IMG/VR virus record: IMGVR_UViG_3300028558_000071
Location: 1 to 34,731 of that record
Strand: one strand, 5' to 3'
Length of the DNA stretch: 34,731 nt
DNA from: a virus
Below are positions 5,822-9,708 of the stretch, piece after piece. The translations under genes were made by a program, and so were the position numbers. The notes under the pieces are model-generated. The model had not been told where the DNA came from, did not search any database, and saw only the letters and a list, made by a program, of their open reading frames with translations. Position 1 is the first letter of the stretch. Every line of letters starts with the position of its first letter.

Positions 5822-5990
5822 AGAAAAAAGCAAGTTCAGTGATTCAAATTTGAAACCTGATAAGACTTGTCATAAATCAAAAGAAGACTTGGGAACGATG
5901 GCTAAAAACCCTTCCAAACTTCCAGGTCAAATGTATGTACCTAAATCACCCGACCACAATGAATCGGACTTCGCAGGAGAAATGAGATGA
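5805..5990 (+). CDS. Hypothetical 61-residue basic protein
   Basis: The ATG at 5805 is preceded by GGGAGAAAACGTC and gives MEKMHKEKSKFSDSN. The protein is Lys/Ser/Pro-rich, without hydrophobic segments, and probably disordered (KNPSKLPGQMYVPKSPDH). An alternative ATG at 5790 is possible. It overlaps the MPFKS gene by 17 bases and the next gene by 4 (ATGA), so the three are a coupled set. No family recognised. Confidence 0.45.
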   Translation: MEKMHKEKSKFSDSNLKPDKTCHKSKEDLGTMAKNPSKLPGQMYVPKSPDHNESDFAGEMR

Positions 5991-6202
5991 TGGATAAACT
6001 TTTATCCCTTTTAGGGATACACCGAGTTGGCATGGTATTCGGAATCGCTTCCAATATTATAAAAGCCTTCGATCAAGAATTTCAAAAAGATCAAGACGGA
6101 AAAAATGCAGCTATAGACAGCATAGTTCAGATTCTGTTGAGTTACAAGGACAGTGTAAAAGCTGCTCCAGCAACTCCTCCAACTGCACCACCTGCTGCTT
6201 AA
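5987..6202 (+). CDS. Hypothetical 71-residue protein
   Basis: Begins MMDKLLSLLGIHRVGMVFG in an ATGA overlap with the gene before it. The first 30 residues are moderately hydrophobic, followed by an acidic/amidated helix and a Pro/Ala-rich tail (PATPPTAPPAA). It could be a membrane-associated or small virion protein; nothing decides between them. Its stop codon overlaps the stop of the convergent leftward gene, so any transcription terminator here would have to lie within coding DNA; I see none. Confidence 0.45.
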   Translation: MMDKLLSLLGIHRVGMVFGIASNIIKAFDQEFQKDQDGKNAAIDSIVQILLSYKDSVKAAPATPPTAPPAA

Positions 6203-6562: not shown

Positions 6563-6671
6563 AAAATCCTCTTTAAATATTTCTTTGCTTTTATCTCAAA
6601 AAACAATTAAGAGTAAAGAAGGTAATAGCTGAGGCTACTACTATAACAATTCAACCTCTGAGGGGGTCATC
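6563..6671. promoter_or_regulatory. Divergent intergenic region (control of 6562- and 6672+ genes)
   Basis: 109 bases between two genes transcribed away from each other, so promoters for both must lie here or upstream. A weak rightward candidate is TTGCTT, 17 bases, TAAGAG. I see no strong -35/-10 pair in either direction. Close to the 6672 gene, GAGG and CCTC segments about 20 bases apart could pair in the leader just before the GAGGGGG ribosome-binding site. Confidence 0.35.
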
Positions 6672-7596: not shown

Positions 7597-7890
7597 ATGT
7601 CAAACGCAGCATTACAAGAATACTGCCCTGAAACGGAAATACCCTTCCACAAGGATATCCGTTTCCATCCCGACCTAACCTTCGGTGAAAAAATGTTCTA
7701 TGCCGAAATCAAATCAATGTCTGACCAAAAATACTGCCCTTTTTCCTCTCGAAAACTAGGCGAATTCTTCGGCGTATCACACCAGACAATACTGAATTGG
7801 GTACAAAAGTTGGTTGAAATGGATCTCTTGGAAGTTGGTACTGACTACAAAAACCAAGAGAATCGACAATTCATTAAAGCTAAAAAATAA
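7597..7890 (+). CDS. Winged-helix DNA-binding protein
   Basis: 97 residues. After MSNAALQEYCPETEIPFHKD the sequence carries the hallmark of phage/plasmid replication-associated winged helices: LTFGEKMFYAEIKSM, then FSSRKLGEFFGVSHQTILNW, whose second helix is the recognition helix, and VQKLVEMDLLEVG as the wing. Related domains are found in replisome organisers and replication initiators and in small regulators. A strong AAGGAG site and its own promoter region suggest early expression. It lies about 0.6 kb before a second winged-helix gene with a probable embedded origin, so a role in replication control is a reasonable inference. Confidence 0.7.
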   Translation: MSNAALQEYCPETEIPFHKDIRFHPDLTFGEKMFYAEIKSMSDQKYCPFSSRKLGEFFGVSHQTILNWVQKLVEMDLLEVGTDYKNQENRQFIKAKK

Positions 7891-7960
7891 CTGATGAATC
7901 AAATAAAAACTTCAATTATATCGTCGTCAGGAATAGCACTCAGTACTTTAGGAGTATCGA

Positions 7961-8251
7961 ATGTCCTGGCGAGATCGGATTGATGAGTTTTTGCAAGATT
8001 TATCGTTAGCAGTTCCAACTCTTCAGGATTATGAGATGATTGACTGGGTAATACTTTCCCTTTGGGGATACGCCGTTTTATGGCCTTCAAAAAGTCGTGA
8101 ACACACACTACTTTTATTGTCCATTGTAGACTTACTTTGGGGCGTATACGATCTTTCGATCGCAGAATACGCTCAAAGTATTCCCTTCTTATTCGGTTTT
8201 CTTCTGATAGCGAGAGGCTATCTAAAAAATCGTGAAGGGACGATACAATGA
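7961..8251 (+). CDS. Small membrane protein
   Basis: 96 residues beginning MSWRDRIDEFLQDLSLAVPT. Two or three hydrophobic segments follow (about 27-43, 50-66 and 71-86), separated by short charged turns, and the C-terminus is basic (RGYLKNREG). The ATG has AGGAG six bases upstream. The opposite strand carries a longer open frame over the same DNA, but it lacks a ribosome-binding site and runs against the operon, so this frame is preferred. A multi-pass small membrane protein is the usual shape of a holin, yet the location among replication genes is unusual for one. Confidence 0.5.
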   Translation: MSWRDRIDEFLQDLSLAVPTLQDYEMIDWVILSLWGYAVLWPSKSREHTLLLLSIVDLLWGVYDLSIAEYAQSIPFLFGFLLIARGYLKNREGTIQ

Positions 8252-8445
8252 AAAAGACATGTCGGACAGTTGGCAGCTTGTATATTCCCATAATCGATAT
8301 CATCGTTTCTCCTAGTTGGGACTTAATTTCCAGTCGGCACTGGAAAATAAGTAAACCCAAACCCACGCCGTGGTTTGAAAGCGAAAAAAAGAAGCTGATG
8401 CTTAGAGTAGCTTCTAAAAGTTTTCACTATCGTCATAGAGTCTAA
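8248..8445 (+). CDS. Hypothetical 65-residue protein
   Basis: Starts in an ATGA overlap with the membrane-protein gene and reads MKKTCRTVGSLYIPIIDIIV. It is basic, with a Pro/Trp-containing middle and a Lys/Arg/His-rich C-terminus (RVASKSFHYRHRV). An 8-bp perfect inverted repeat lies inside it, so part of the DNA may be regulatory. No family recognised; coding status is moderate only. Confidence 0.4.
   Translation: MKKTCRTVGSLYIPIIDIIVSPSWDLISSRHWKISKPKPTPWFESEKKKLMLRVASKSFHYRHRV
8325..8348. repeat. Inverted repeat (hairpin) inside the small gene
   Basis: TTTCCAGT (8327-8334), a CGGC loop, and ACTGGAAA (8339-8346) form a perfect 8-bp stem; one further pair forms after a mismatch. No T-run follows on either strand, so it is not an obvious terminator. 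Confidence 0.5.
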
Positions 8446-8458
8446 CACGATTAAAAAT

Positions 8459-8485
8459 TTGACACAAGACGGAAAACTTTAAGAT
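8459..8485 (+). promoter_or_regulatory. Promoter candidate for the replication-type gene
   Basis: An exact TTGACA (8459-8464) is followed after 15 bases by TAAGAT (8480-8485), a fair but closely spaced pair. The box sits in an 11-mer identical to one at 7538-7548, so the two genes may share a control protein as well as a promoter type. Confidence 0.5.
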
Positions 8486-8492
8486 CACTCGC

Positions 8493-8517
8493 ATCAGTCT
8501 CAGAAGGAGACTAGATG
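8493..8517 (+). promoter_or_regulatory. Hairpin covering the ribosome-binding site and start codon
   Basis: AGTCTC (8496-8501) pairs perfectly with GAGACT (8507-8512) across a five-base loop, AGAAG. The right arm contains most of the AAGGAG ribosome-binding site. With a single bulged base the stem extends by ATC (8493-8495) pairing with GAT (8514-8516), covering the first two bases of the ATG at 8515. Such a structure would limit initiation until it is opened or bound. Confidence 0.55.
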
Positions 8518-9708
8518 GCAACATGTACACTATTGTCTAAGATTGATGAAGGAAAGCTTCTGAATGGATTGCAAACTAAGGATAATTTTGATAATGTTAA
8601 ACCATTAAACGGAAAACCCTCGGCTGTTACCGAGGGTCTTCAGGTGAAAACTTCAGATTTGGTGGCTCCGAAATCTGATAGTGGGCGTTTGGATACCCCC
8701 ATTATATCAGAACTGCCGAATTTGTACAAACAAAACGGCATTCCGATGTCTAAAATTCCCTATTTCTTTGACACTCCTGTTCCGAAATATTTTCGTGAAA
8801 AAGGTCTATTCAAAAACGAAAAAACTTGGAAATTCGTAACTTGGGCTTTCGCCAAATGTAGCTCTCAGTCTTGGACTGTAGAATACGACAATTGCGAACT
8901 CACTTTACAGCCATACGAATTCATATGTGGTCGGAACAAAAGTTCCGCTGAATGCTTTCTCACGCCTAAAGAATTTAGGGGCCAACTGAATTCTCTACTA
9001 AAGCGTCAATTAATACGAAAAGGGGCCAACACAAAGGCCAACCGATATTCATCCTACGTATGGTCTATAGAGCGTTTTTCAGAAACCAAGGGCCAACTGA
9101 AAGGCCAAGTGGAGGGCCAACCGAGGGCCAACTCAGGGCCACAATCTAGAAGAAGAGAAGAAGAAGAAGATAAAAGAAATCATCCCTCTATCCCTTCGGG
9201 GAAGAGTGATGGAAAGATTGATGATCTTTTTTCAAATGAAGAAAATAAAAACAAAATACATGTCTTCTCAGGAAAATATCACAACGATAATCCTCTTCAT
9301 GTTTATCTCACTCAGGAGCAGTACGACGAATGCTTGAAAGTCAGGGGCTCAAAGGATCAAATCATAAAAGTCATCGAAGTGGTAGCTAATTGGAAACAAA
9401 GAAAATACGAAATAAAAGACTGGTTTAAGACCATCATGACTTGGAATTATCGTAATACGATTGCCGACAAAACTATAGAAAACGAAAAGCTAGGAAAGCA
9501 AATTCAAGAACTTTATGGAGAATGCAAGGGATGGAATGCAAGAATCTATCGAGATCCCTTAAAAGATGTTCGAGGAATACTATTTGAGTCTTCCGCCTCT
9601 GTAGGAAATCCGATTCCAATTTTCGTACCCTTCACGGATGGGGAATTCAAAGAAAAATGTCTTCAGGTTATACAATCAAAAAATATGAAAAAAAAGGGAT
9701 CAAAATGA
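8515..9708 (+). CDS. Replication-initiator-type winged-helix protein
   Basis: 397 residues. The N-terminal ~70 residues look disordered. Residues ~76-190 form a conserved domain: IPMSKIPYFFDTPVPKYFRE, then WKFVTWAFAKCSSQS, YEFICGRNKSSAECFLT, and the winged-helix-like PKEFRGQLNSLLKRQLIRKG followed by YVWSIERF. A Gly/Gln/Arg/Glu-rich linker (~191-225) is followed by a C-terminal domain (~245-397). I remember similar proteins from environmental Chlamydiae and plasmids, unsearched. The linker and domain edge coincide with a GGCCAAC repeat array, as in phage lambda O with its internal origin. It is therefore probably the initiator that loads a host helicase. It overlaps the next gene by ATGA. Confidence 0.65.
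   Translation: MATCTLLSKIDEGKLLNGLQTKDNFDNVKPLNGKPSAVTEGLQVKTSDLVAPKSDSGRLDTPIISELPNLYKQNGIPMSKIPYFFDTPVPKYFREKGLFKNEKTWKFVTWAFAKCSSQSWTVEYDNCELTLQPYEFICGRNKSSAECFLTPKEFRGQLNSLLKRQLIRKGANTKANRYSSYVWSIERFSETKGQLKGQVEGQPRANSGPQSRRREEEEDKRNHPSIPSGKSDGKIDDLFSNEENKNKIHVFSGKYHNDNPLHVYLTQEQYDECLKVRGSKDQIIKVIEVVANWKQRKYEIKDWFKTIMTWNYRNTIADKTIENEKLGKQIQELYGECKGWNARIYRDPLKDVRGILFESSASVGNPIPIFVPFTDGEFKEKCLQVIQSKNMKKKGSK
8616..8740. repeat. Cluster of inverted repeats in the 5' part of the initiator gene
   Basis: Three inverted repeats occur within 125 bases. ACCCTCGG (8616-8623) pairs with CCGAGGGT (8630-8637), loop 6. TCAGATTT (8653-8660) pairs with AAATCTGA (8671-8678), loop 10. TGCCG (8714-8718) pairs with CGGCA (8736-8740) and encloses the 10-bp palindrome TTTGTACAAA (8721-8730). 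The protein encoded here is the low-complexity N-terminus, so DNA or RNA structure may be what is under selection. Confidence 0.6.
8978..9182. other. Probable replication origin: GGCCAAC iterons and purine tract
   Basis: GGCCAAC or a one-base variant starts at 8980, 9024, 9036, 9091, 9103 (GGCCAAG), 9115, 9126 and 9137 (GGCCAC). The last five are 12, 12, 11 and 11 bases apart, about one helical turn. The motif is read as codons GGC-CAA at some copies, as G-GCC-AAC at others, and as GG-CCA at the last, so it is kept at DNA level rather than for protein. Bases ~9147-9182 are almost purely purine (AGAAGAAG-type). Iterons inside the initiator gene followed by a purine-biased unwinding region is the lambda origin plan. 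Confidence 0.65.

Follow-up and report, generated by a model that had tools for sequence, protein, structure and literature searches.

A repeat array read across reading frames inside a phage initiator gene is a probable replication origin

Introduction

Replication origins located inside the gene of their own initiator are documented for phages Tuc2009 and TP901-1, and the Rep protein of Tuc2009 is described as binding to repeats within its gene, which serve as the origin (PMC8965321). In SPP1, oriL lies within gene 38 (PMC6316719), the in-gene origin of 80alpha was placed at ORF20 by genetics (PMC5499656), and in lambdoid phages the iterons lie midway through the initiator gene, beside an AT-rich region (PMC7466680). 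The Rep proteins of the staphylococcal plasmids pSK41 and pPR9 provide a related example, with four Rep boxes inside rep that are bound by the N-terminal domain (NTD), a dispensable linker encoded by the origin, and a separate C-terminal domain (CTD). Between these two plasmids, NTD and origin were replaced together in pPR9 by phage-like sequence (with an HTH_36 NTD), and the CTD was kept (PMC5703833).

When we applied a ladder finder to genes of this kind, it recovered four copies of CAACCA in Tuc2009 rep (orf16) and four of GGAACC in r1t orf11; in both, the steps are exactly 11 bp, the codon phase rotates, and purine-rich DNA follows. The same finder detected no 11-bp ladder in TP901-1 rep, the 80alpha organiser, or lambda O, and the first two of these indicate that some in-gene origins have another layout. 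Here, we describe a candidate origin in IMG/VR record IMGVR_UViG_3300028558_000071, which has 34,731 bases without a terminal repeat and was analyzed over its whole length (referred to below as the window). It is of a kind already known and represents a further case.

The initiator gene and its protein

The proteins that could be recognized in the window include a terminase, a portal, a major head protein, a RuvC-like resolvase, and a gp2.5-like single-strand binding protein. The gene of interest and the domains of its product are as follows.

8515 to 9708, plus strand: replication initiator (replisome organiser) gene, 397 amino acids as the longest open reading frame; its protein is P0001.
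8746 to 9081, plus strand: N-terminal winged-helix-like DNA-binding domain, by hhalign.
9250 to 9705, plus strand: C-terminal domain, the part retained when N-terminal domain and array are exchanged between relatives L011 and L131.

The start kept among homologues is the ATG at 8746 (MSKIPY...). Pfam and PHROGs searches with P0001 gave no assignment above threshold, a fold search with its C-terminal domain found no match to any solved structure, and the AlphaFold model (mean pLDDT of 48 for the whole protein and 42 for the N-terminal domain) is too weak to inform the fold. With hhalign, the N-terminal domains of three homologues aligned to those of seven phage winged-helix-turn-helix (wHTH) initiators with a probability of 94% and an E value of 8.6e-8 over 75 columns, a match that relates this domain to the winged-helix domains of phage replisome organisers. 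Among the window proteins searched there was no match to a helicase, a helicase loader, DnaC, or DnaD, and no helicase-loader gene follows the initiator gene. A scan for promoters and terminators near this gene gave matches no commoner than in shuffled sequence.

The repeat array

The preliminary description had reported eight GGCCAAC-type copies falling in different codon phases of this gene, and both statements proved correct. The array of GGCCA(A)(C) repeats on the plus strand comprises eight copies in 164 bases, six of them exact GGCCAAC and two variants, with offsets counted here from 9103.

8980 to 8986, plus strand: outlying GGCCAAC copy at offset -123, common to homologue L123 and absent from L011.
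9024 to 9030, plus strand: iteron at offset -79.
9036 to 9042, plus strand: iteron at offset -67.
9091 to 9097, plus strand: iteron at offset -12, an extra copy.
9103 to 9109, plus strand: iteron at ladder position 0, variant GGCCAAG.
9115 to 9121, plus strand: iteron at ladder position +12.
9126 to 9132, plus strand: iteron at ladder position +23.
9137 to 9143, plus strand: iteron at ladder position +34, variant GGCCACA, in the run AGGGCCACAATCTAGAAGA, which is identical in L011 and read there in another frame.

Spacings are, in order, 44, 12, 55, 12, 12, 11, and 11 bases, and the codon phases relative to the 8515-9708 frame are 0, 2, 2, 0, 0, 0, 2, and 1, so that all three are used. A period of 11.25 bp fits the eight positions, with a resultant length of 0.96 (versus 0.31 at 10.5 bp). 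No other 7-mer is as clustered as GGCCAAC in the window, where GGCCA reaches a maximum of 8 per 165 bp, compared with at most 4 in 300 dinucleotide shuffles. The sole exact 6-mer ladder in the 34.7 kb (at least four copies at steps of 10 to 12 bp) is GGCCAA at 9091-9126, and none appeared in 200 shuffles. When codons were shuffled 20,000 times with protein and codon usage preserved, no more than five copies arose, versus the eight observed. With one mismatch allowed, the whole window holds 59 motif matches against 56 expected; the motif itself is not rare, and the signal is the cluster.

In layout this locus resembles Tuc2009 rep and r1t orf11: direct repeats lie in the gene's own sequence, and an N-terminal DNA-binding part of HTH type is followed by a ladder of four repeats at about 11 bp in rotating phases, a purine-rich stretch, and a C-terminal part. 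The differences are the letters of those iterons, the absence there of the +12 step and of the -79/-67 pair, and the fact that neither protein was recovered by similarity search with P0001. As the 11-bp ladder is shared with Tuc2009 and r1t and is missing from lambda O, the candidate origin of the window belongs with organisers of the Tuc2009/r1t layout. The lambdoid parallel drawn in the preliminary description holds as a functional analogy: lambda O also has iterons in mid-gene, followed in lambda by an AT-rich region, but its annotated iterons are 18 bp long and spaced at 20 to 24 bp, compared with 11 to 12 bp here, and O is followed by the P gene, while no loader gene follows the window initiator.

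Duplex stability and the purine tract

Downstream of the array, two segments differ from their surroundings.

9147 to 9182, plus strand: purine tract 3' of the array, likewise purine-rich in L011, L123, L131, and L002.
9200 to 9299, no strand assigned: least stable duplex near the array by nearest-neighbor stability (least-stable percentile 1.6 to 6), a putative unwinding element.

An array set in an AT-rich region and followed by a purine tract that serves as AT-rich unwinding region had been proposed. The tract is real, with purines at 29 of 30 bases at 9148-9177, but this stretch is not especially AT-rich, and the array itself is GC-rich and forms the most stable duplex of the neighborhood. 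The tract as weakest duplex was accordingly rejected, as the weak segment begins about 60 bp past the array and the tract lies between the two. Cumulative GC skew over the window, which had been suggested as a check, does not reach a global extremum where the array lies; it tracks gene orientation and is uninformative about, and gives no support for, an origin.

Conservation in homologues

Direct protein searches of viral contigs (with P0001 alone), of annotated phages (with P0001 and P0002), and of 84,980 genomes gave no relatives, which were obtained through a DNA pattern scan, the terminase, and two-sequence alignment. Homologue L011 (the same as L124) came from the pattern scan and L123 from protein similarity; their residue identities to P0001 are 41% and 45%, respectively. 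Most of the 120 pattern matches were set aside as repeats coding for GQ or AN in one frame.

All eight array positions are present in L123, with spacings of 44, 12, 55, 12, 11, 11, and 11 and two copies reading GGCCCAC. L011 has seven copies, with spacings of 12, 67, 12, 11, 11, and 11, and its longer gap contains a 12-base insertion, approximately one turn. The alignment of homologues proposed as a check of codon-independent conservation was positive in both. Where a degenerate residue is conserved between the window and these homologues, the codon is identical at 13 to 14 of 13 to 15 sites inside the copies, compared with 48 to 54% outside (Fisher p of 0.0002 to 0.002). In addition, the last three copies occupy codon phases 0, 2, and 1 in the window and 2, 1, and 0 in the homologues through a one-base indel, which indicates that it is the DNA that is conserved and not the peptide.

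Related arrangements were observed elsewhere. At L007 3475-3620, the GGCCAA array of an organiser gene is accompanied downstream by part of the array and linker for a second time, with GQVNAQQTANQTA repeated, and this appears to be an origin segment duplicated in frame. Copies of GGCCAA about 11 to 12 bp apart also occur in L112 (3109-3822), L055, and L088, in genes for other types of replication-like or HTH protein, and those of L112 and L088 are in mixed phases.

Exchange of the DNA-binding domain and the array

The genomes of L131 and L011 are collinear on both sides of the gene, at 74 to 83% DNA identity, and the C-terminal half of the L131 initiator is about 90% identical to that of L011. 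The N-terminal domain, however, differs, and the L131 initiator gene is without GGCCAA. In its place is an array of CGACCGATCAA at -79, -67, 0, 12, 23, 34, and 45, followed by a similar purine stretch. This comparison indicates that DNA-binding domain and repeats were exchanged together between the two lineages, as in the replacement that distinguishes the plasmids pPR9 and pSK41. A homologue with a conserved protein and no GGCCAAC, which the preliminary description had named as refuting evidence, was found only in L131, and as its DNA-binding half is replaced too and another array occupies the position, L131 supports the origin claim.

A trace of the exchange may survive in L011. Directly upstream of its initiator, and overlapping the start codon, is a stand-alone gene for 122 amino acids (L011:9128-9496, minus strand) whose product shares 59% of its residues with the N-terminal domain encoded by the L131 initiator gene (L131:3267-4199). 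This gene is probably the decapitated DNA-binding domain of the initiator that was replaced. The simplest reading would be that a new cassette of domain plus array was inserted in the L011 lineage and the old domain was left as a separate open reading frame; in such a natural exchange, origin recognition would travel as one cassette.

In the nearest phage, L002 (terminase 87% identical), this position is occupied by an organiser that belongs to a different family (phrog_2514, DnaD-like helicase loader, E value of 4.8e-12) and is adjoined by a DnaC loader. Its repeats are of GTGAGCC type: two are paired at L002rc 6569/6581 and four form a ladder at 6648, 6660, 6671, and 6682, which places them at -79, -67, 0, 12, 23, and 34. 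With the terminase shared, organiser and repeats different, and the offsets the same, the initiator changes and the neighboring packaging gene and the layout stay.

Probable origin function and alternatives

Given the relation of the N-terminal domain to wHTH organisers and the 11-bp in-gene ladders of Tuc2009 and r1t, we read the array as the replication origin of this phage, bound by the initiator encoded in the same gene. Conservation in the homologues, the joint swap of domain and repeats, and the documented in-gene origins make this reading, which the preliminary description had also reached, highly probable. The N-terminal winged-helix domain would bind the GGGCCAAC-type iterons of the gene that encodes it (at 9024, 9036, and 9091-9143), and several initiator molecules would assemble on both the upstream pair and the ladder, at about one DNA-binding domain per 11.2 bp. 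The twist of the DNA in the complex would decide whether all these domains share one face, as 11.2 bp per turn needs underwinding, which in turn would aid the opening of the purine-rich, weakly paired DNA 3' of the array. The bound complex could thus strain or melt first the purine-rich and then the AT-rich DNA downstream (approximately 9147-9299), the C-terminal domain would bring in the replicative helicase machinery of host or phage, and replication would start at the array. The encoded linker would be free to vary, so that the DNA can follow its spacing rules in whatever frame results.

An alternative is that the repeats are an operator and not an origin, at which either the initiator, as an autoregulator, or the HTH protein encoded at 7597-7890 binds within the gene and throttles transcription. 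The wHTH-like N-terminal domain and the presence of this second HTH gene upstream would suit such a role, but the array lies in mid-gene, at the domain junction and before a purine tract, like documented in-gene origins, and in the exchange it moved with the N-terminal domain and left the C-terminal domain in place, and we consider an operator improbable. Even less probable is that the array serves recombination, packaging, or partition and lies in the gene by chance. Sites of these kinds too have direct repeats, and the terminase gene is only about 1 kb downstream; the same place and geometry nevertheless recur in the organiser genes of many phages with differing neighbors, and the letters follow the DNA-binding domain of the organiser and not the terminase, since L002 has the same terminase and other repeats. 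That the repeats merely reflect a repetitive GQ- or AN-rich linker peptide, with no function as DNA, can be dismissed almost entirely, because even though four of the eight copies read GQ in one frame, all three phases are used, codon shuffles fail to reproduce the array, the spacing is 11 to 12 bp and single copies stand apart at -79 and -67, and homologues read the same DNA in different frames, so the earlier argument that protein repetition cannot explain the copies stands.

Under the origin reading, a candidate origin for an undescribed phage group has been placed within about 280 bases from sequence alone, together with an initiator that goes undetected with standard libraries. Specialists would be interested in the conservation independent of frame, the clean exchange of domain plus array, and the spacing rule proposed below.

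Spacing of iterons in other initiators

The layout was then compared across wHTH initiators gathered by protein similarity and not by their repeats, giving 49 representatives at less than 70% identity. A ladder, defined as four copies at 0, +12, +23, and +34 agreeing in at least 27 of 32 letters, was present in 43 of the 49, by a finder tuned on these same data. In the upstream interval from -130 to -20, no offsets other than -79, -78, -67, and -66 recurred in at least six genes; each of these four occurred in 16 to 17 genes, against 3.5 to 5 expected when motifs were swapped between genes. At least one copy at -80 to -78 or at -68 to -66 was found in 40 of 43 genes, and both in 27, although the genes share a homologous domain and the layout may simply be inherited. 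The window fits exactly with 9103 as 0 (9024, 9036, 9115, 9126, and 9137), its extras being at -12 and -123. Iteron letters vary from phage to phage. The DnaD-like/wHTH organisers of Listeria, Bacillus, Vibrio, and Pseudomonas phages (L125 to L129) and IMG/VR relatives, whose wHTH is homologous by profile comparison, share the layout -79/-67, 0, +12, +23, and +34 and differ in iteron letters and C-terminal domains. A universal 11-bp ladder in the strict sense was rejected, as 80alpha gp20, TP901-1 rep, and lambda O have none and that of L130 is poor.

We are inclined, by a modest margin, to propose that phage winged-helix initiators follow a fixed, letter-independent spacing code within the gene, with a pair at -79/-67 inside the sequence coding for the DNA-binding domain and a ladder at 0, +12, +23, and +34 (and +45) just past it, the offsets being approximately multiples of 11.2 bp. 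Lineage-specific letters would match the initiator and form an exchangeable cassette with its DNA-binding domain, and a repeat of 11.2 bp, which exceeds that of relaxed B-DNA, would suggest underwinding on binding as an aid to opening. We found no description of this rule in the open literature searched. The rule could allow origins to be predicted in many phages and would account for the odd low-complexity linkers of phage replication proteins (TNEQPTNNQQVTTNK and others) as a side effect of 11-bp DNA repeats translated in all three frames. The many natural cases also provide a large body of data from which a protein-DNA recognition code, relating domain to iteron letters, could be derived.

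Other features of the window

The 97-amino-acid HTH protein at 7597-7890 is similar to replication initiators over their N-terminal part (phrog_19658/phrog_270, E value of about 1e-6) and is kept in L002 (105 amino acids) despite the differing initiator downstream; it may be either the remnant of an earlier initiator or a regulator. Upstream of the initiator gene, at about 8456-8490, the element AAATTTGACACAAG..ACG.AAAACTT is common to the window and L002 (L002rc about 5985-6015), in which the initiators are unrelated, and we suggest that it could be a promoter or control site of both phages. Overlapping open reading frames at 7899-8366 (minus strand) and 7961-8251 (plus strand) both have counterparts in L002. 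Last, the protein encoded at 2082-3047 matches phrog_200 (annotated as a lipoprotein, E value of 2e-71) and looks like a membrane protein of SPFH/stomatin type.
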